The notes beneath the pieces were generated by a model, which had not been told where the DNA came from, searched no databases, and saw nothing but the letters and a program-made list of their open reading frames with translations. A stretch of DNA of 38,254 nt. Origin: Alphaproteobacteria bacterium. GTDB taxonomy: Bacteria > Pseudomonadota > Alphaproteobacteria > JAJFIK01. The stretch is taken from NCBI GenBank assembly GCA_021774965.1, contig JAJFIL010000160.1:1-38254 (forward strand), read 5' to 3'. Positions within the stretch are counted from its first letter, which is position 1, and each line of letters starts with the position of its first letter. A program made the translations under genes and the position numbers. Shown here one piece after another: positions 9,859-19,460 of the stretch.

Positions 9859-12185
9859 TTTGCGTCTCCCTGGTCTGCAGGCGGTTTGGGGGCCATCAGT
9901 TTACCGCGCCGAATTTTGATCAGCCCCAGAGCTGCCAAACCAGCCACCATGACAACGGTGATCTCGCCCAATGTATCGAGCGCCCGGAAGTCCACCAGGA
10001 TCACATTGACGATGTTGCGCCCGTGGGCTTGGGTGTAAGAGTTTTCCGCAAAATACGTGCTTAGTGAAAGATCCAGGGTACCGGATGTAATGGCGATCAG
10101 CAGCACCGTGAAAGAGGCTCCCACCGCGATGGCAATAATTGCATCTCGCATGGACGGCAGCGCATCTCTACTGTCATAGGTATCGACAGGCAGGCGCAAC
10201 AGCACCAATGCGATGATCACAACCGACAAGGTCTCCACCATGAACTGGGTAAAGGCGAGATCCGGCGCACCGAATAGCAAGAAGATAAGGGCAACGGAAA
10301 ACCCGGTTACCCCCATGGACAGGATGGCTTGTAATCGGGAGCGGGCAAACATCAGCGCAAACGCGCCGGTAACCGCCAGCGCCAAAACGCCATAAACCCG
10401 CCACGGCGCCTCAGGGAACTGGAAGCTTTCCGGCATCATGTCAAAGGCGAGAACCGGCGCACCGAGCGTGATTGCCAGAACTGACAGGGTCATCACCACA
10501 TAAGATCTCAGCTTCCCGCGCTGGATCAGGCCGGTGATCCATTGGGAAAAACGATCAAGACCGGCAAGGAATTGATCCGAACCTTTGTCGGGGCCCCACC
10601 AGTTGCCCATAAGAGAGTTTGCGGCTTTCCGGATCCGTTCGGAATACCAAAAGCAGATCATGCCAAATATGATCGTCACCCCGCTGAGAATAAGCGGCAG
10701 GCCGGGTACAAAAGCCAGGTGCAATTCTACATGCGCACTATGGCCCGTGATCGCGCCGGTCATGGGGCTGACGAAATAGGTCGCTGCCAGCTCAGGCCAG
10801 ACCCCAAACAAAAATCCGCAAGCGCCCAGCAGAACAGGGCCCAGCCAAATGCTTGGCGGGCCTTCACGCGGGGCCTTGGGGGTTGTCACGATGGGGCCAT
10901 AAAATGGCCGAATGGATACCACCGCGGCAATGGCCAGCATCAGCGCATTTCCCACTACCGCTACGGCTGTAATGATTGTCGCAAGATCCATATGGGTGGT
11001 GGCTTCATAGATCACTTCCTTGGCAATAAAGCCAAAGAACAGCGGCACGCCCATCATGGAGAGGGCTGCAAAAATAGCGGCAAAGGCAGTGATTGGCATG
11101 GCACCGCCAAGCCCCCCAAGGCCTAAGGTCTCGCGTGTGCCGGTCTGGTGATCCACAGAACCTGCCACTAGAAACAAAGCGCCCTTGAAGAAGGAATGCG
11201 CGATGAGATAGATCACGGCCGCTTCCACCGCCATCTCTGAGCCCAGCCCCAGTAACATGACCAAAAGCCCGAGGCTTGCCACTGTTGTGTAGGCCAGCAT
11301 CAGCTTCAGATCGACCTGGCGCAGGCCCAATATGGTGCCGATGATCAATGTAATGCCGCCAAAGATGGGCAGGACGGTTGTCCAAAGCTCGGTGCCTCCC
11401 AGCACCGGATGCATGCGTGCCAGCAGATAGACACCCGCCTTGACCATGGTGGCTGAATGAAGAAAGGCGCTCACCGGGGTGGGGGCTTCCATGGCATTGG
11501 GCAGCCAGAAGTGAAATGGGAACTGAGCTGATTTGGTAAAAGCGCCAGCCAGGATCAGAATGAAAATAGGCACATACAAGGCATCATCGGCGATGGACCC
11601 GTTACTAAGGATCTCGGACATCTCATAGGTGCCGGAGGCCATGCCCAGCAGTACCAGCCCGCCCAACATGGCCAAGCCGCCCCCCGCTGTCACATAGAGC
11701 GCTTGAATGGCGGACCGCCGCGCCTTGGCATTTGCGTGATTAAACCCAATCAGCAGGAACGACGTAATGGAGGTGAGTTCCCAGAACACAAACAGGGTGA
11801 TCAGGTTGTCTGCCAGCACCAGCCCCAGCATGGAGCCCATGAAGGCCAGGATAAATCCGTAGAACCGGCCCTGATGAGGGTGACCTTTAAGATAGCCCCC
11901 CGTATAGATCACGATGATGGTACCGATGCCGCTGATCAAAAGCGCAAAAACAAGGCTGAGCCCATCCAGATAAAACGAGAGCTGAACCCCAAAACTTGAG
12001 ACCCACGGGATCGCCTCGCGCACCACGCCGCCTGCGGCGATGCCGGGAATTTGCAAGAAAAAGAAGGCAAATATACTGGCAGGCAACAGAGCCAGCACCC
12101 AGCCACTGAGGGGCCGGGTCAGCCGATGCACGGTAGGAGCAAGGAACGCCAGCACAAAGCCGGACAGCACCGCATGCAATATCAT
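9855..12185 (-). CDS. mrpA: Mrp-type Na+/H+ antiporter subunit A
   Basis: A 776-residue polytopic protein, normal for MrpA, homologous to NuoL with a C-terminal extension carrying the NuoJ-like/DUF4040 part ([20 protein letters not shown], about residue 650). The essential glutamate is in [18 protein letters not shown] (about residue 136), and the broken-helix region reads [27 protein letters not shown]. MrpA with MrpD carries out cation/proton exchange for sodium resistance and pH homeostasis. It is the first gene of the mrpABCDEFG operon, with all junctions overlapping or under 10 bp. The ATG at 12185 is preferred over the preceding TTG. The 195-bp leader upstream holds no gene, and I see no recognisable riboswitch in it. 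Confidence 0.96.
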
Positions 12186-12380
12186 CAAGGAGCCTACCCC
12201 ATTTGCCCATGAATGAAGGGGACGGGGCTCGCTATTGCTCTAGCGTGCCCTGCCCCCAAGAAGAATCCATCGGACAATAGACGTCTCAGGGGCAAGGCTT
12301 CAACTGTTTCAGTGGCTCTTCCACAGGTATTTAGGTGCGATCTCTCGCCTCCCCCCTGCCAGAAGAGCGGCCAGAGCTGA

Positions 12381-13058
12381 TCAGTCCTTGTTCGCCATGG
12401 ACCGAGCCAGGCACGGACACTCTGCCGCCATGACCTCACAGGCATATTCCAGGTAGTGATCCAGGGCTGCCAGCATCACCTTTTGATTGGAGGTGCCCAT
12501 GCGGGCTGCGAGAATTTTAAGCTTCCGAACCCGTTCCGGATCCAACCGTGTGATCACCCTTGCTTTTGCCCCTTGCGGCAAGGTTTGGGTAACAGCGGTC
12601 GGCAAAGGCAGCTCACAGCAATCACCAGAACTCAGCGTTGCCTTGCGATGAGCTTTCTTGCGCAATTCTGGTGTTGAGAACGGCTTCTCATCTTCCTTCA
12701 GCTCGGGCTCCATCACCGGCTCAAGCGCTGGCTCAGGCGGCCCCTCCCGTGCCTCAACAGGCTCACGTTCGGGTTCCTCTACCTGAGCCACTGGCTCTAC
12801 CGGACCCACTGGGGCGAGCACAGGTTCAGGATCCGGCTCGTGATAAACCGGCGGCCGGGGCACATCTGGTTGGCGGGCAACGCCATGGGTATGCAGAGAA
12901 ACCCCATCCAGATGAGCAGGAGCCGGGCTCGCTTCACCCTTTCGGGCCATGATCCCGGCGGTGAGAGAGGCGAAGCCGCCTCCGTTCTGGCCGTTCTGGC
13001 CACCGCCCCCGTTTGGGCCTGAGGCATTGCCGTTTTTGAAAGCTGGTTGTTCATTCAT
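12381..13058 (-). CDS. Ribbon-helix-helix protein with long Pro/Glu linker, partner of ParA-like ATPase
   Basis: A 225-residue protein in three parts: a Gly/Asn-rich N-terminus (residues 10-30), a disordered Pro/Glu/Val-rich linker (about 60-125, repeated PEP/EPV steps), and a C-terminal ribbon-helix-helix unit. That unit reads ARVITRLDPERVRKLKILAARM then GTSNQKVMLAALDHYLEYA, i.e. one beta strand and two helices in the usual order. It ends with two cysteines (ECPCL). GGAGG lies 7 nt before its ATG. It starts 12 bp after the ParA-like gene on the same strand. In type Ib partition systems a small RHH protein serves as centromere-binding partner and repressor, so this may be the DNA-binding partner here; that is inference. 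Confidence 0.8.
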   Translation of the reverse strand: MNEQPAFKNGNASGPNGGGGQNGQNGGGFASLTAGIMARKGEASPAPAHLDGVSLHTHGVARQPDVPRPPVYHEPDPEPVLAPVGPVEPVAQVEEPEREPVEAREGPPEPALEPVMEPELKEDEKPFSTPELRKKAHRKATLSSGDCCELPLPTAVTQTLPQGAKARVITRLDPERVRKLKILAARMGTSNQKVMLAALDHYLEYACEVMAAECPCLARSMANKD

Positions 13059-13070
13059 GATCCTGCCTCC

Positions 13071-13808
13071 TTAAGCGCTTGCCGAGGCGCGGCGGCCAAA
13101 AGCCGGTGCGGACTTGCCAAGAGCATTGATGCGCGGGCCCACGGCACGGACGCCGCGTTCATGACCTTCCTCTTCCAACCGGGAAAGGCGGTCGGAGAGA
13201 TAATCCCAAAGGGCTGATATCTCCAACGAGGATTTGCACTTGGGATTGACCTCCATGACCGTCCGGCCATCGATCATGCTGGCGGCATAATCGGTGCGGT
13301 GATGCAAGGTCACCGGAGCCACAGTCCCGTGCTGGGAGAGGGCAACAGCGGCCTCCCCCGTGATGCGGGCCCTGGGGTTGGCAGCATTGAGAACAAACAC
13401 CATGGGTTTGTTCCTGCTTTCCACGATGTCCACCGTGGCCCCCACTGCACGCAGATCATGCGGGCTGGGCCGTGTTGGCAGGACCACCAGATCCGCCATG
13501 GCCACCACTTCGGCAATCGCGCGGGTGACCGCCGGAGGCGTATCAATGACCACAAGCCGATATCCTTCGGACCGAGCCCGTTCGATATCGTGCAGCAAAT
13601 TGGGGAACGTGCATTGCATGAATGCCGGCGCGGGGGTCTCCCGCACATTCCACCATTTTGCCAAAGAGCCTTGCGGGTCCGTATCAATCAACGCGACAGG
13701 CCCTGCGCCCTGCCGTTCTGCTTCAACGGCCACGTGGCCTGATAGTGTTGTTTTTCCTGAGCCGCCTTTTTGAGATGCAAAGACAAGCACATGCATCGGT
13801 ACTGACAT
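13071..13808 (-). CDS. ParA/MinD family ATPase
   Basis: A 245-residue cytoplasmic ATPase. The deviant Walker A motif is complete, ASQKGGSGKTTLS with the signature lysine at residue 14 and the P-loop lysine at 19. Switch I/A' is LIDTDPQGSLAKWW, Walker B is RLVVIDTPPA, and FVLNAANPRARI carries the usual base-binding region. No N-terminal helix-turn-helix domain is present, so this is a short (type Ib-like or orphan) ParA that does not repress itself. It is not the canonical chromosomal ParA, whose partner is ParB. The start at 13808 has GGGAAG upstream; the frame extends to 14030 but that extension is not ParA-like. It is cotranscribed with the ribbon-helix-helix gene. Confidence 0.92.
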   Translation of the reverse strand: MSVPMHVLVFASQKGGSGKTTLSGHVAVEAERQGAGPVALIDTDPQGSLAKWWNVRETPAPAFMQCTFPNLLHDIERARSEGYRLVVIDTPPAVTRAIAEVVAMADLVVLPTRPSPHDLRAVGATVDIVESRNKPMVFVLNAANPRARITGEAAVALSQHGTVAPVTLHHRTDYAASMIDGRTVMEVNPKCKSSLEISALWDYLSDRLSRLEEEGHERGVRAVGPRINALGKSAPAFGRRASASA

Positions 13809-13834
13809 GGCTTCCCATCCTCCGAGCCATAGTT

Positions 13835-14053
13835 TCATTGCACATACGGACCATCCGTATGCTGATAACCGATAGGGGCTTGAAAGAAATTCAGAGCAGT
13901 CCCTTCGGCAACCCCGCTGCCCTTCTTTCCACGTGAAAGTGACGGGCCGGTGGTTTTGCGTCCCGCCTTTCCAGACGGTTTGCCTTTTCGAGGAAGCGCA
14001 GAAGGGGCGGCGCATCCCTTCCTCTCGCACTTCGTACTTGTCAGGCTAGGCAT
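13835..14053 (-). CDS. Doubtful small basic protein upstream of the ParA-like gene
   Basis: A 72-residue frame, rich in Lys, Gly and Ser (KGKPSGKAGRKTTGPSLSRG), with no recognised motif and only weak ribosome-binding sequence. It fills most of the 301-bp divergent region between the ParA-like and acyltransferase genes and ends 26 bp before ParA. The palindrome at 13843-13861 lies in its last codons. It could be real, but this may also be only untranslated leader. I keep it as a possibility. Confidence 0.25.
   Translation of the reverse strand: MPSLTSTKCERKGCAAPSALPRKGKPSGKAGRKTTGPSLSRGKKGSGVAEGTALNFFQAPIGYQHTDGPYVQ
13843..13861. promoter_or_regulatory. Perfect 19-bp palindrome upstream of the ParA/RHH pair, possible operator
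   Basis: CATACGGA and TCCGTATG are perfect reverse complements with a CCA spacer, ending 34 bp before the ParA-like start codon. The 8-bp arms make chance unlikely. Ribbon-helix-helix proteins bind short palindromes as dimers, so the downstream RHH protein is the natural candidate. Confidence 0.55.
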
Positions 14054-14059
14054 AGCGCT

Positions 14060-14074
14060 TTAACGAGGTATTAA
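14060..14074. promoter_or_regulatory. Perfect CtrA-type box TTAA-N7-TTAA
   Basis: TTAA at 14060-14063 and 14071-14074 are separated by exactly 7 nt, the full consensus for the alphaproteobacterial cell-cycle regulator CtrA. It lies 35 bp before the acyltransferase start and in the region that diverges toward the ParA/RHH pair, so either or both may be controlled. Confidence 0.5.
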
Positions 14075-14109
14075 ATGGACAGTTTGATCCAAATGTCGGA
14101 TATACCCCT

Positions 14110-14832
14110 ATGCGCAGAGATCACCGCCCCCTTTGGCTTCGAAACATGATGGCGTCCTATGAGGCGTGGTATGCGGAGCATTTTCTTCACCCCCACTTTG
14201 ACGGAATTGGCCCAGGCAGCCACATCGCAAGGCCCTGGGGCATTCATGTACACGGCCAAGGTATCACGGTTGGCAATCATGTGCATATGAGTTCTGCTGT
14301 ATCTCAGGATGTCTGGATGACATCGTGGAATTGGGTGGACAGGCACGGCCAAATTGAGATTGGCGATTATGCTTTGATCACCCCTGGAGTGCGCATTTCT
14401 TCTTCTACCAAAATTTCCATTGGGCGCGGGACAATGTTGGCAGGCAATGTATACCTCACTGACAGTGACTGGCATGGCACTTACGACCGCACGCAAGAAA
14501 TGGGCAAGACCGCCCCCATCACCTTGGGTGAAAATGTCTGGATCGGCGACAGCTCAATTGTCTGTAAGGGCGTTACCATCGGGGATAACTCAATTATTGG
14601 AGCTGGCTCTGTTGTGGTCAAAGACGTGCCCGCCAATACCATCGCTGCGGGAAACCCCGCCAAGGTCGTGAAAGAGCTTGATCCCAATGAGCCGCGCCGC
14701 ACACGCATGGATTATTTCAGTGATCCAGCCAAGCTGAATGCAGACATGGCGTATCTGCATCGCCACATGCTCAAAGGCAATTCGGCCTGGGGATGGATAC
14801 GGTCTGTTCTTTTCCCAAGGAAAACGGACTAA
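14110..14832 (+). CDS. Left-handed beta-helix (hexapeptide repeat) acyltransferase
   Basis: A 240-residue protein of the LbH acetyltransferase family (as in WcaF, maltose and chloramphenicol acetyltransferases). Hexapeptide repeats run from about residue 45 to 190: HVHGQGITVGNHVHM, IEIGDYALITPGVRI, ISIGRGTMLAGNVYLTD, then ITLGENVWIGDSSIV and CKGVTIGDNSIIGAGSVVV. The closing AAGNPAKVVKEL is typical. A histidine in DSDWHGTYD is a candidate catalytic base. Such enzymes acetylate sugars for surface polysaccharides, but the substrate is unknown. No clear ribosome site precedes the ATG; MMASYEAWY at 14147 is an alternative start. Its stop overlaps the stop of the convergent DUF2336 gene. A CtrA box lies upstream. 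Confidence 0.88.
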   Translation: MRRDHRPLWLRNMMASYEAWYAEHFLHPHFDGIGPGSHIARPWGIHVHGQGITVGNHVHMSSAVSQDVWMTSWNWVDRHGQIEIGDYALITPGVRISSSTKISIGRGTMLAGNVYLTDSDWHGTYDRTQEMGKTAPITLGENVWIGDSSIVCKGVTIGDNSIIGAGSVVVKDVPANTIAAGNPAKVVKELDPNEPRRTRMDYFSDPAKLNADMAYLHRHMLKGNSAWGWIRSVLFPRKTD

Positions 14833-15968
14833 GCCGCGAGCTGATCCTGCATCACGTCCCACATCTTCACCGTGGCAAGGGCACCATCGGGGGCAATGCT
14901 GTCATAGATGCGAGCGACCTGTTCAATCTGCCCAGGGGGGCGCGGGGTTCCAAAACGGCGATAGTCGTTCTTCAGCAAAACCGAGGTAAATTGCGTCCGA
15001 TCAGCGTCAAGGGCACGGCATAAAACAGCCAGAGCCTCGCCGCCTTCGTCGATGAGTATCCGCTCCACGCTTTTCTTGCGGATCGACAGATATCTCGAAA
15101 CACCACTGGCAAAATCACCCAGACGCCCGGCCTTGATGTGACCGATAAGCTCGGACACCGGCACCCAACGATTGGCGGGCTTGCCGCCTATAGCTTGATC
15201 AATGGCGTCCCGCAGACCAACAATCTCAGGATCGGCCAGACCGTCACTCACCGCTTCCTTGAGCAAAATGTCCAATTGCCCGGGGCGGATCGAGAACCGC
15301 TCCAGGATTTGCTGGCGCAGACCACCTCTTGTGGACCAGAAAATCTGTTGGGCAATCATCTCCGGCAACTCGTTCCGATTGACCAATGCCTGCTGCATCT
15401 GATTGTTGCCGCTGGCCCAACCGGCGATCTTGCCAAAATCCGAGTTTTGGATCTCCGAGCCATCGTTCTCAAGAAGGGCCAAAATGGCGTCGGTTGCCCC
15501 AGTTTCAATGATAGCACTGCTCACCGATTTGCTGACGTTTGGCCGCCCGGCGATAGCCGTCGCGTGCTCGGGGCCTTTGTCTTCGATAACTTCAATCAGT
15601 AGATCATCGTCAAAGAGTACGCTTTGACTGAGCACCGGCTCTGCAACTTCAATCTCATCGTGGGCGAGAAACTCAAGCAACCCGCGTGGTGCATTCGGCA
15701 GGTTGGCGATCTGCTCTGCCAGTTTCCGGCGAACCGCAAGTTCTGCCTGTTCAGCCATTTGCCGGATTAGGGGAACAAACTGTTCTTCCTCCCGTTCCTG
15801 CAAGGCGCCATCACGGGTTTTGAGCATGGAGACCATTGTTCCAAGGAGCCCCTCCGCGGAGCCCCCCTGGCTGACTTCTTGGGCCTGATGCAGAGCATCG
15901 GCATGTACCAGCAATGTCTGACGATCCGCCTCACTGTGGACTGAAGTATTCTTGTCCGTCTGCGCCAT
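14829..15968 (-). CDS. DUF2336 domain-containing protein
   Basis: A 379-residue, mostly helical, soluble protein. The region from about residue 70 on (AELAVRRKLAEQIANLPNAP, LLEFLAHDEIEVAEPVLSQS, IEVIEDKGPEHATAIAGRPNVS) has the repeated helical pattern and the wording I associate with alphaproteobacterial DUF2336 proteins, which look like HEAT/ARM-type repeats. Function is not established; some relatives are linked with polarity or signalling. The ATG at 15968 is preferred over the TTG three codons upstream. Upstream lies a 250-bp divergent region with two GANTC sites, so cell-cycle-linked expression is possible. Confidence 0.82.
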   Translation of the reverse strand: MAQTDKNTSVHSEADRQTLLVHADALHQAQEVSQGGSAEGLLGTMVSMLKTRDGALQEREEEQFVPLIRQMAEQAELAVRRKLAEQIANLPNAPRGLLEFLAHDEIEVAEPVLSQSVLFDDDLLIEVIEDKGPEHATAIAGRPNVSKSVSSAIIETGATDAILALLENDGSEIQNSDFGKIAGWASGNNQMQQALVNRNELPEMIAQQIFWSTRGGLRQQILERFSIRPGQLDILLKEAVSDGLADPEIVGLRDAIDQAIGGKPANRWVPVSELIGHIKAGRLGDFASGVSRYLSIRKKSVERILIDEGGEALAVLCRALDADRTQFTSVLLKNDYRRFGTPRPPGQIEQVARIYDSIAPDGALATVKMWDVMQDQLAA

Positions 15969-16063
15969 GATGATCAACTATCCCAAAACACGTTGTTGCA
16001 TGATGTGCTCTATGTGAGGCTTCAGTTTAAGTTTGTAAGCTCTAAGAGCGGGTTGTTCGTATC

Positions 16064-16077
16064 GAATCAATTGAATC
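16064..16077. promoter_or_regulatory. Two GAATC (GANTC, CcrM) sites 9 bp apart in a divergent promoter
   Basis: GAATC at 16064-16068 and 16073-16077 lie in the intergenic region between the DUF2336 gene and the small lipoprotein gene. GANTC is the CcrM methylation sequence of alphaproteobacteria, and GcrA/CcrM-controlled promoters carry such sites near the promoter core. Confidence 0.4.
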
Positions 16078-16219
16078 GTTATTTTGTCACGGCAATAAAA
16101 TCACCAACGAGTAAAGCCAACGAAACGACGGGTTTCTCTGCTGGACTTGTTTGAACGCTTAAGGATAATGGGGCGTTAATTGTTCTTCGACGACTCAAGT
16201 ACAGATGCAGGTGAGCAAC

Positions 16220-16570
16220 ATGAGGCCCGGAATGTTTCGCAGCGCAGCAATGAATATCGCTCTTGCCCTCCTGGCGACAGGAACACTGGCGCTGGCCGGG
16301 TGTGAGACCGCTCGCGATCCACAAGTTCTGCAGAACCCAAACTATTCAGCAGGTTACGCCGACGGCTGCCAAACGGCCCACACCCGCGTTACGGGCTTTG
16401 ATGACACTATCATTCGCAATGAAGCGTTGGCGGAGATTGAGCCCATCTATGACATGGGCTGGCGCGATGGCTATAGTGCGTGCGGAGAAGGCGATTTCGA
16501 CACCAGCGATGGCGCGACCCGAGAGGTTTTCCGCCGCGGATCTGAACATTACACATCGGCACCTTATTGA
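16220..16570 (+). CDS. Small putative lipoprotein
   Basis: A 116-residue protein. The N-terminus (MRPGMFRSAAMNIALALLATGTLALAGCE) is a lipoprotein signal with lipobox LALAGC, so the mature protein would be lipidated at the cysteine. The mature part is about 85 residues, with paired motifs GYADGCQTAH and GWRDGYSACGEG that look like an internal duplication and carry two cysteines. The start at 16220 has AGGTGAG 5 nt upstream; an ATG at 16205 would only lengthen the signal. It is followed within 2 bp by another small envelope gene. Function unknown. Confidence 0.75.
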   Translation: MRPGMFRSAAMNIALALLATGTLALAGCETARDPQVLQNPNYSAGYADGCQTAHTRVTGFDDTIIRNEALAEIEPIYDMGWRDGYSACGEGDFDTSDGATREVFRRGSEHYTSAPY

Positions 16571-16572
16571 TC

Positions 16573-16800
16573 ATGATTAGATTACTTTTCACATTGGTCG
16601 TTCTTGTTGCTGCCGGATATGGCGGGTTGGCCTTCTATTACGGTGCAACAGAGCCATGTGACATGCTGGCTGAGGAGATCACCAATCAACAAGGTGAGAC
16701 CGTTGGGCGTTTGATGGGAGGCTTTAATCGCATGGGCACCAACCAGATGAGCCAACGAGAATGCGTTGACGAGCTGTGGCGCGCCTGGTTCGACGATTAA
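16573..16800 (+). CDS. Small single-pass membrane or exported protein
   Basis: A 75-residue protein with an N-terminal hydrophobic segment (residues 3-24, LLFTLVVLVAAGYGGLAFYY) and a soluble part of about 50 residues containing two cysteines (EPCDML and RECVDELWRAWF), which may pair outside the cytoplasm. It begins 2 bp after the lipoprotein gene and is surely cotranscribed with it. I do not recognise the family. It converges on the antiporter gene with a 20-bp gap. Confidence 0.65.
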   Translation: MIRLLFTLVVLVAAGYGGLAFYYGATEPCDMLAEEITNQQGETVGRLMGGFNRMGTNQMSQRECVDELWRAWFDD

Positions 16801-16820
16801 GCTAAAACTCCAAATCGAAC

Positions 16821-19295
16821 CTATGTGTCAGGCTTCGCGTTCTTGACCAGTCGTTCTTCGGCAATTTTTTCAATATGATCACGCAAAGACGGGATCGTGC
16901 GCGTCAGGTCGCGGAAATCTTTTCGCTTGAGCGACAGCAACGTCACATAGCCCTTGGCCGTAACATTGGCATTGCGGGGGTCATTGGTAACAAGCGCAAT
17001 CTCGCCGAACACGTCGCCCTGTTTGAGCTCGATAGTGTTATTCGGCAGTTGCACTTCGACCTCACCAGAGGCGATGAAATACATGCTATCGCCCTTATCC
17101 CCTTCAGAAATAATACGCTCGCCTGGCACCGCAAGTTCCGGTGTTAGCTCCCGCACCAGATCCCTCGTGCCTTTATCGTTCAGCTCACGGAAGAAATCCA
17201 CCTTCCGGATCATCCGTTGCAGACGCAAGCCCAGATCCAGTGGGGGGCGTTTGTCCAGCGCGTGTTGCCGTGTTCTCCGGTCCAGCTCCAGATCATCATA
17301 AATCTCGCTGGAGATCATGGATTGTTCGAACTGCGCCTTGTATTCGCTGTCCTCAAAGCCCAAAACAATCCGCTCCAGATAACGCGCCCGCAGGCTGTCC
17401 GCATAAGCTGGGTACTGAAGTTCCAGTGCTTCAAGAGCACTTTGGGTGGCGGCCAATCTGTCTTCCAGAACACGTTCCAGCGGCTCGGAGACGTCTTCTC
17501 CCAAAAGAGGCGCGACAAGATCCCGATTGACCTCGCGCAAATCTTTCAAGGCAAAGCCGATGACGAGAAGAACCTCAAACCTGTCCGCTACCGCAGATTC
17601 CAGTGGGCCTCGAATATGGAGTTTGCGATAAAACCACAATGCCCTGCGAAAACGCCGGGAGACAGCATAGGACCTGAGACTGGCAGAGATGTAGCCTTCC
17701 GGCCCCCGCGTTTTTGTTCGATCCAACAGCCTGCCGCTTTCCGCGCGCAACAGATCCGCAATGTGTCGGTCCAGCAGACCCCTCTGGAAATAATCGAGGT
17801 AAAGCTCGCCTTCTCGGTTGGCCAAGGTCAAGAGACCAACGCGGAGGCCTTCTTTCTTGCCCAACGCCTGAGGCTCGCTTGCCTCGTCCACTGCTTTTAC
17901 CTTGGAAACACTGACATTGGAGAGAACCGAGCCCAACCCCATGTCGCCTGCGATACGCCCGACGCGCTTGTGTATCCGCTCCCGCGACAAAGCCATCACC
18001 CGGTCCCGCACCATGCGTTCGCGGTCATTGAGCTGATCCAATTTGAGGAATTTGATGAGAGGGCGCAACGTTGGTGCCTGAAAGATCAGTGTAGAGAGCA
18101 CATAACCGGTTGCCATCACAAAGATAAAACGGCTTACTTCCAAAGGCACTGCTGGGTTCTCCCAGACAGAAAGCGCTAGTGCGACGGTCACCGCCCCACG
18201 CAAGCCCCCCCAGATTAAAACCGTGTTGTAATTATTGGAAATGGGGCGCGCCACACCCAGAAGCCCGAATATGGGCATGATCCCGTAAAGCACCACCATC
18301 CGCGCCAGAATAGTGCCGAAGAACAAAGCGGCAAGCAGGCTGAGGTCCGAGACCTGAAACGCCTTGAGCGCCTGAGGTGCCAGCATAGCTGCGAAGGTAA
18401 AAATCAGCGACGTGCCCCAGAAATCCAGCTGCTTCCAGGTCTGAAGCAGATTGCCCCAGGCCCCGGGAGATATCCGCGTTCGGCCTTCTGAATTCACTAC
18501 CATGGCGGCAGTCACCACCGCGATGACGCCTGAGACCCCGAAATATTCTTCGGACACAATGAAGACGAGATAGGCAAGAGCCAGGGTCAAGGTGATCTCT
18601 GCCACCACCACATCGCGCAAGGCCCCGATGATGAAAATGAATAAACGCGCCGCAAGGAACCCCACCAGCAAGCCCCCCATCAGGCCTTTGAGAAATGCCC
18701 AGATCGCTCCGACGGCCGTGGCTTCCTGCTGGGTCGTAATCACGCCCAGGATCACGGCGAATATGGCAATGGCGGCAGCATCGTTCAGCAGGCTTTCGCC
18801 TTCAACAATGATGGTCAGGCGCTTTGGCGCGCCGATGTCGCGAAAGATCGCTACCACGGCCGCACTGTCTGTTGTGGCCACGATAGAGCCCAGCAGAAGA
18901 CAGGCCAGAAGGCCAACATCCGAAATCTCATTAAGGCCAAAGCCTACAATCGCGGTACACACCCCCACTGCCACAATGGCCAACAAGAGCACCGGCCAGG
19001 CATCATCCATGAGCCGGCGCACATCCACCGTCAGGCCGGCATGAAACAGCAAGGCTGGCAAGAAGAGATAGATAAAGGCATCCGCTGAAAGGCGCATGCT
19101 GCGGATCGCATTTAGAAAATCACCGACCGGGCCACCAACCTCGACATCCAGTGAAACGACCAGCCCAATGCCTACCCCAACGGCAGCTAAAACCACCGTG
19201 AAGGGCACGCTTAGTTTATTGGCAAGTGGCAGCAGTAAGCTGACCAGCCCCAAAAGGGCAGTCACGCCAAATACCGCCAGAGCGACGTCTTGCAT
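16821..19295 (-). CDS. CPA1-type Na+/H+ antiporter with C-terminal cyclic-nucleotide-binding domain
   Basis: An 824-residue protein. Residues 1-410 are a 12-13 helix NhaP/NHE exchanger domain. The CPA1 ion site is seen in GESLLNDAAAI (Asn171-Asp172) with TTDSAAV (Asp143) before it, and a conserved GGLRGAVTVAL follows. Residues 410-700 are cytosolic and helical. Residues 701-820 form a CRP-like cyclic-nucleotide-binding domain: VPGERIISEGDKGDSMYFIASGEV, then the phosphate cassette FGEIALVTNDPRNANV with Glu765 and Arg774 retained. This exchanger-plus-helical-plus-CNBD layout resembles plant SOS1 and sperm NHE. Transport may thus be gated by a nucleotide or by the domain itself. The start at 19295 has GAGGAATGG upstream. 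Confidence 0.93.
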   Translation of the reverse strand: MQDVALAVFGVTALLGLVSLLLPLANKLSVPFTVVLAAVGVGIGLVVSLDVEVGGPVGDFLNAIRSMRLSADAFIYLFLPALLFHAGLTVDVRRLMDDAWPVLLLAIVAVGVCTAIVGFGLNEISDVGLLACLLLGSIVATTDSAAVVAIFRDIGAPKRLTIIVEGESLLNDAAAIAIFAVILGVITTQQEATAVGAIWAFLKGLMGGLLVGFLAARLFIFIIGALRDVVVAEITLTLALAYLVFIVSEEYFGVSGVIAVVTAAMVVNSEGRTRISPGAWGNLLQTWKQLDFWGTSLIFTFAAMLAPQALKAFQVSDLSLLAALFFGTILARMVVLYGIMPIFGLLGVARPISNNYNTVLIWGGLRGAVTVALALSVWENPAVPLEVSRFIFVMATGYVLSTLIFQAPTLRPLIKFLKLDQLNDRERMVRDRVMALSRERIHKRVGRIAGDMGLGSVLSNVSVSKVKAVDEASEPQALGKKEGLRVGLLTLANREGELYLDYFQRGLLDRHIADLLRAESGRLLDRTKTRGPEGYISASLRSYAVSRRFRRALWFYRKLHIRGPLESAVADRFEVLLVIGFALKDLREVNRDLVAPLLGEDVSEPLERVLEDRLAATQSALEALELQYPAYADSLRARYLERIVLGFEDSEYKAQFEQSMISSEIYDDLELDRRTRQHALDKRPPLDLGLRLQRMIRKVDFFRELNDKGTRDLVRELTPELAVPGERIISEGDKGDSMYFIASGEVEVQLPNNTIELKQGDVFGEIALVTNDPRNANVTAKGYVTLLSLKRKDFRDLTRTIPSLRDHIEKIAEERLVKNAKPDT

Positions 19296-19460
19296 CCATT
19301 CCTCGTTCGTCCGCAGAGGGTCTAGCCCCTGCTTCGCAATGGGCAATCCTTACCGATACGCGGGGCCGCGTCAAAAGCAATCCCCCATCTGCTCAAAAAC
19401 CGTGTAGGACTCTGGGCATCGTAGTTCCTCTGATTTGGCCGCGTATGGAAGGCATCGGTT

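Follow-up and report, generated by a model that had tools for sequence, protein, structure and literature searches.

The type Ib partition system ParF/ParG of TP228 pairs a small ParA with a ribbon-helix-helix (RHH) centromere-binding protein, and the title of a 2007 paper by Barilla, as given in PMC9178275, describes the ParG tail as enhancing ATP hydrolysis by an arginine finger-like motif. The locus analysed here shares this basic composition, but its sequence relation to ParF/ParG is weak, and it is chromosomal, has a long linker in the partner protein and carries a riboswitch. Closer to it are ParA/RHH cassettes of small plasmids (for example Comamonas pZM22-2, Deefgea piscis unnamed2, Methylomonas AM2-LC unnamed2, and plasmid PLAsvaD), which belong to the same ParA subfamily and encode an adjacent small protein that matches an RHH profile and has a head of the type [ST][SA]GL[VI]A[RK]KGxA. 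PMC8987985 states that chromosomes can be served by ParA genes that came from plasmids. In Myxococcus xanthus, the RHH-family protein CdbA links c-di-GMP to nucleoid organisation and segregation (PMC7156744); the abstract of that paper names no ParA operon, and its full text contains 11 words beginning with "para". CdbA resembles the partner protein described below in fold only (Z 4.3 and 4.2) and binds c-di-GMP itself, whereas at the present locus the effect of c-di-GMP would fall on the mRNA; as an RHH protein tying c-di-GMP to nucleoid organisation, CdbA represents a separate instance. Among c-di-GMP-I (GEMM) riboswitches (RF01051 and RF03167), the aptamer found here scores above the gathering thresholds and differs in its target, a ParA operon; a literature search that lay mostly outside subscription journals returned no ParA operon under a c-di-GMP riboswitch, a result that holds for the sources covered and makes no claim about absence from print.

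We consider it probable that the locus (Table 1) is a long-standing chromosomal relative of the type Ib ParA/RHH systems that partition plasmids, a fixed parA-partner operon with expression gated by c-di-GMP. It is the riboswitch that makes this ParA/RHH locus interesting.

Table 1. Features of the locus; positions refer to the whole 38,254-nt stretch of DNA analysed (the window).
Feature	Position	Strand	Description
Partner (adaptor)	12381-13058	minus	225 aa; N-terminal FASLTAGIMARKGEA motif, long low-confidence linker, C-terminal RHH, C-terminal ECPC
parA	13071-13808	minus	245-aa ParA-type ATPase of type Ib size, without HTH, with C-terminal AFGRR tail; ATG at 13808, end of stop codon at 13071; family alignment A4
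Likely Shine-Dalgarno of parA	13818-13823	minus	GGAGGA, by eye
Palindrome	13843-13861		CATACGGA-CCA-TCCGTATG; exact 8-3-8; predicted leader-RNA hairpin between aptamer and ribosome-binding site, or protein operator
c-di-GMP-I riboswitch aptamer	13903-13993	minus	parA leader; RF03167 67.7 bits (gathering 59), RF01051 70.2 bits (gathering 35)
DUF2336 protein	14829-15977	minus	Recurs beside the pair in related lineages; classed here as a neighbour

The parA-partner pair and its plasmid relatives

The first-pass annotation described a short ParA without an N-terminal HTH, and this description holds: the protein falls in the class of small ParAs (about 200-250 aa) with a deviant Walker A, residues 14-20 read KGGSGKT, no N-terminal HTH is present, and the Pfam AAA_31 match begins at residue 5. 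The closest family is NF041546 ParA_partition (170.5 bits, under the curated cut-off of 180); the protein also matches phrog_164 (144.1 bits), and the nearest solved structure in the PDB is ParF (5.9e-16). MipZ (PF09140, 40.1 bits) and VirC1 (PF07015, 36.2 bits) both score over their Pfam cut-offs; the NCBIfam VirC1 model reaches 33.9 against a cut-off of 313, compared with 170.5 for ParA_partition, and no VirC2 match was found for the partner among the Pfam matches listed.

The partner gene starts 12 bp past the end of parA and encodes a Gly-rich head followed by a Pro/Glu linker and a C-terminal RHH unit. This architecture, as initially annotated, stands for the source protein; the Gly-rich head, however, is absent from the partners of the two genus mates, and the conserved head element is FASLTAGLxARKGEA rather than the Gly-rich stretch. 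AlphaFold predicts residues 131-140 (pLDDT 72) and 161-220 (76-97) above a pLDDT of 70 and the rest with low confidence. The leading structure matches of residues 163-216 are RHH proteins, every one of them weak: the best Foldseek E value was 0.73 (probability 0.98), no match reached E 0.001, and Z did not exceed 5.2. These proteins include CopG, AtaR, PutA, NikR, and Arc, with ParG and omega lower. By sequence, the partner matches RHH families weakly and falls short of the cut-offs (Antitox_RHH 20.8 bits, cut-off 27.2; PF09274 ParG 13.5 bits, gathering 21.4), a point against the type Ib reading, as is the sub-threshold NF041546 score of ParA; by eye the strand pattern is what we take to be Arc-like. 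An RHH-type partner thus adjoins parA as in type Ib systems, on fold matches that are weak.

From 31 distinct partner ORFs, L039 (a false match by eye) and L045 (double RHH) were left out and the source partner was added, giving 30 aligned partners that share the head motif (F)ASLTAGLLARKGEA; the Arg of LLARKG (Arg39 in the source partner) is kept in 30/30. The order is head motif, variable-length linker, RHH and often a C-terminal CxC (present in 23 of 44 assigned partners), and both end motifs are kept among relatives while the linker drifts. The long linker had been called unusual for an RHH partner, but it is usual in the chromosomal form: by mechanical ORF starts, chromosomal partners measure 111-365 aa (median 186, 44 assigned) and plasmid partners 78-152 aa (median 93.5, 14 assigned). 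The partner also has paired Cys at residues 147-148, before the RHH, and CPC at 214-216, after it; CxxC and CxC occupy corresponding positions in several relatives, and these Cys pairs are a possible metal or redox site. The L045 partner (positions 1237-2055 of that locus; G008:C523) apparently has two RHH units per chain, as judged by eye and from two profile matches.

Conservation of the pair was followed from the source genome (G000; incomplete, with an estimated 7.2% contamination) to its two genus mates (G001 and G002) and across a survey set of 386 genomes of the class. Both genus mates keep the pair, beside Mrp-type antiporter genes and a hexapeptide transferase-like gene, and ParA identity within the genus is 79-81%, Walker A being intact. 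A profile of the three genus partners matched in 22/386 class genomes, including at least one false match by eye (L039), and in 15 loci in contigs of alphaproteobacterial MAGs. A broader partner profile matched in 61/386 genomes, and ParA matches split into 65 places with at least 290 bits (52/386 genomes) and 45 places with at most 226 bits, counts that are partly circular because alignments A3 and A4 contain members from some of the genomes later searched with them. A partner lies within 1 kb downstream of 59/65 high-scoring ParA places, compared with 2/45 low-scoring ones; twelve partner-profile matches lie away from any listed ParA. In a set of 52 loci (L145 duplicates L052), the partner profile matched in 49, one of them weakly (L126, E 0.0086), with no match in L122, L154, and L155; under stricter geometry, a partner was assigned in 44/51. 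The RHH gene therefore does adjoin ParA in relatives; its absence there, which the first-pass annotation had named as grounds for rejecting its proposal, was not observed. Some places lie on contigs of >3 Mb (G013:C1, G029:C1, G126:C1), which bears out the chromosomal setting proposed earlier. A separate ParB scores above cut-off in the source genome and G001 and below it in G002, so that the ParA/RHH pair is not the sole chromosome segregation system.

In the five best plasmid records, ParA identity is 58-63%, with the alignment covering about 84% of the protein. Several of these plasmid ParAs are directly followed by small RHH-like proteins whose heads resemble that of the source partner (heads SSGLVARKGAAVP, SAGLIAKKGQAVP, and TSGLVAKKGQAAP in L014-L016), and in four annotated cases a replication gene follows the small RHH-like gene. 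A tblastn search of plasmids with the source partner gave no match, and the relation of this protein to the plasmid partners therefore rests on motif and profile. In the plasmid partners of L015 and L016, Lys replaces the Arg of the head motif; L019 has Val there, and the partner of L045, outside the 30-row alignment, has LLAVKG; these replacements do not support a strict arginine finger, and, to judge from the sequences, the activating residue may be any basic one, or the motif may act otherwise. The C-terminal tail FG[RQ][RK] is present in 33/51 chromosomal ParAs and in 0/16 plasmid ParAs.

A first ParA tree with 67 rows was poorly resolved and contained three very long plasmid rows; it was rebuilt with 62 rows after L216, L217, L218, L135, and L132 were dropped. 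In the rebuilt tree, chromosomal and plasmid labels need 2 changes, against a mean of 12.0 after shuffling; a single chromosomal ParA clade was not rejected (p-AU 0.444), yet it appeared in only 14% of bootstrap trees. The tree fits few exchanges between plasmids and chromosomes, without giving their direction. The type Ib-like logic read from the locus at the outset is supported by the near plasmid ParA/RHH cassettes, several of them beside replication genes, and by the RHH gene adjoining ParA; the accompanying suggestion of a domesticated partition system is plausible and fits these data, although the tree does not give the direction of exchange that it implies. Iterated centromere-like repeats of the type Ib kind were not detected beside the operon (12200-14300 and 13800-14120), and some plasmid relatives likewise have no repeat array. 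A Defluviicoccus vanus plasmid carries CACGAAA-type repeats before its parA (L212 1143-1495), a possible centromere of the plasmid form; none were found in the source leader.

A c-di-GMP-I aptamer in the parA leader

An alignment of the leaders of the three genus members shows conserved blocks that Rfam assigns to a c-di-GMP-I aptamer, overlooked in the earlier reading of the sequence. The aptamer core appears standard by eye (GGCAAACC, GGGACGCAAA, and GCGGGGTTGCC), with the ligand-contact positions being those that we assume for this class; RF03167 presumably originates from a variant-riboswitch paper. Rfam scans of 43 loci (L054, L060, L061, L132, L145, L154-L158, and plasmid loci left out) placed a riboswitch in the parA leader of 16 loci and none in that of 27.

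Across the 386 genomes, 55 places in 33 genomes scored over the cut-off for c-di-GMP-I riboswitches (two places under it were left out), under stricter filters, so that weak copies may be missed. Thirteen of these 55 places, in 13 genomes from five family groups, lie no more than 300 bp upstream of a high-scoring ParA, compared with none within 1200 bp upstream of any low-scoring ParA; 52/65 high-scoring ParA places are without a riboswitch. Because most members are without it, the module does not depend on control by c-di-GMP. In six genomes (G000, G001, G002, G090, G113, and G207), the riboswitch of the parA leader was the only one found at this stringency. GGDEF domains are encoded in the source genome and both genus mates. 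A tandem pair of c-di-GMP-I aptamers precedes parA in G154 (G154:C3) and G376 (G376:C5). Neighbours of riboswitch loci elsewhere include, by eye, PilZ-like and response-regulator-like genes.

The gap between aptamer and start codon, assigned by eye, is 10-15 nt in 9/16 loci and 89-124 nt in 6, with L150 left unassigned. In the nine loci of the first class, the Shine-Dalgarno directly follows the aptamer, suggesting translational control: a ligand-stabilised P1 stem could hide the ribosome-binding site, giving an OFF state at high c-di-GMP, and the module would then be active mainly in low c-di-GMP, motile-state cells. When these nine leaders were folded, part of the Shine-Dalgarno was paired with the 5' strand at a probability of at least 0.5 in four (L049, L055, L138, and L148); such modelling does not settle the sign of regulation or the expression platform. 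At the source locus, the aptamer lies 94 nt from the ATG, and the OFF model may therefore not apply there. Neither a sigma-70-type promoter match nor a terminator-like site on the operon strand was found within 12150-14200.

Proposed cycle and cargo

Gene order, conservation, plasmid ParA/RHH homology, the RHH fold prediction, and the c-di-GMP-I aptamer were computed here, and from them we infer the rest of the cycle. ParA-ATP would coat the nucleoid, and a partner dimer would bind a DNA site or other cargo through its RHH units and contact ParA through the long flexible arm, a region predicted with low confidence; Arg39-Lys40, the basic pair of LLARKG, would trigger ATP hydrolysis, and the cargo would be moved or kept spaced along the nucleoid. 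Through the riboswitch, cyclic di-GMP would set the dosage of both proteins. The least certain steps of this proposal are the sign of regulation and the cargo. If it is true, the second messenger behind the choice between swimming and settling also controls, by way of a single RNA switch (in the source genome the only one of its kind found), how much of a ParA positioning motor is made. This would connect c-di-GMP to subcellular positioning, and the chromosomal ParA/adaptor pairs would form a defined family that extends across many alphaproteobacterial families. A bolder reading, less likely than not, is that an ancestor of many alphaproteobacteria captured a plasmid-type partition pair, which then gained a long-armed adaptor and a new ParA tail and, within several families, came under a c-di-GMP riboswitch; ParABS would then be accompanied by a second system of DNA positioning, conditional on the motile-sessile signal, by which a chromosomal locus is moved or anchored.

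The surroundings of the pair were compared by an all-against-all ORF comparison over 52 loci, with ten proteins of the window run against Pfam and the other neighbours (MucR, SufE) named by eye. Genes at 14829-19346 in the window, encoding the DUF2336 protein, a small putative lipoprotein (DPxYxxGYxDGC), and a Na+/H+ exchanger with a cNMP-binding domain, are found close to the pair in 14, 15, and 12 loci, respectively, source included, as a sub-clade feature; MucR-like and SufE-like genes also recur. No flagellar, chemotaxis, carboxysome, or storage-granule neighbours were seen by eye in the 52 loci. The comparison was not decisive as a means of deducing the cargo.

It is conceivable, though somewhat unlikely, that ParA and its partner position a protein cargo, such as an envelope, transport, or signalling assembly, with the RHH unit only autoregulating the operon or tethering the complex to DNA. 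ParA relatives with such a function exist; the cargo of McdA and of PpfA is protein. Both are listed in PMC9178275. The exchanger, the small putative lipoprotein, and the DUF2336 protein in the sub-clade neighbourhood would suit an assembly of this kind, as would the lack of detected centromere repeats; against it, no neighbour resembles a known cargo by eye, and the neighbourhood shifts between lineages while the pair stays. The strands of the RHH unit, which by eye match what we take to be the Arc pattern, and the partition-type cassettes of the plasmid relatives also point away from protein, and the cargo is probably DNA.

The palindrome of the leader

The perfect 8-3-8 palindrome that had been noted 34 bp before the parA start is exact. 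With the aptamer upstream, it sits between the aptamer and the ribosome-binding site, and the predicted leader RNA folds it into a hairpin. The proposal attached to it, that the RHH protein uses it as an operator or as a single centromere, now appears unlikely. In favour of this proposal are the exactness of the repeat in the leader, the core CGGACCATCCG retained in the G001 copy, and degenerate copies in excess: at no more than 3 mismatches, the source genome has 18 places compared with 10 for a reversed control, and degenerate searches of the three genus genomes gave 71 vs 22, 40 vs 10, and 43 vs 15, an excess of 2.9 to 4 times the control for which codon usage is a possible cause. Four such copies are clustered before a MarR-like gene. 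However, the G002 site is altered, no counterpart was found in leaders of the other lineages examined, and the clustered copies precede the MarR gene, with mainly the promoter-proximal one recognisable in G001. By chance, a repeat of this kind would turn up in about 1-3% of such leaders, and more often with mismatches allowed: among 1000 dinucleotide shuffles of the 320-bp leader, 12 contained a perfect 8-bp inverted repeat with a loop of at most 3 and 33 one with a loop of at most 8, and, with mismatches allowed, 4/40 plain leader shuffles matched the quality of the palindrome. Its position after the aptamer suggests a role in the RNA. As the pair's own site, the palindrome thus fares poorly, being partly kept in one of two genus mates and in none of the other lineages examined; it is weak evidence for an operator and probably not the centre of the system.

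A conserved centromere was also considered, using exact and degenerate searches of the three genus genomes; with one exact copy in the whole window and genome, and a cluster poorly kept in G001 and G002, the palindrome was not read as one. That the operon is a vestigial plasmid partition cassette kept by chance, with no present function, would accommodate the plasmid homology, the unconserved palindrome, and the lack of a detected centromere, but it is highly improbable and largely refuted by the conservation of the pair, namely the ParA identity and intact Walker A within the genus, the partner end motifs retained despite linker drift, and the occurrence of ParA across the class with the partner mostly retained.

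The cluster of four degenerate copies of CATRCGGANNNTCCGYATG occupies an intergenic region of the source genome (G000:C235:27098-27284; L005 7098-7284), and these copies are possibly MarR operators. Its counterpart in G001 comprises mainly the promoter-proximal copy (3 mismatches) and another place with 4, and G002 has one place with 4 mismatches. The gene that follows (L005 7367-8959) encodes a protein that is MarR-like by eye, with a very long, histone H1-like tail rich in Lys and Ala; relatives of this Lys-rich-tailed protein are present in G001, G002, G090, G113, G207, and G189.
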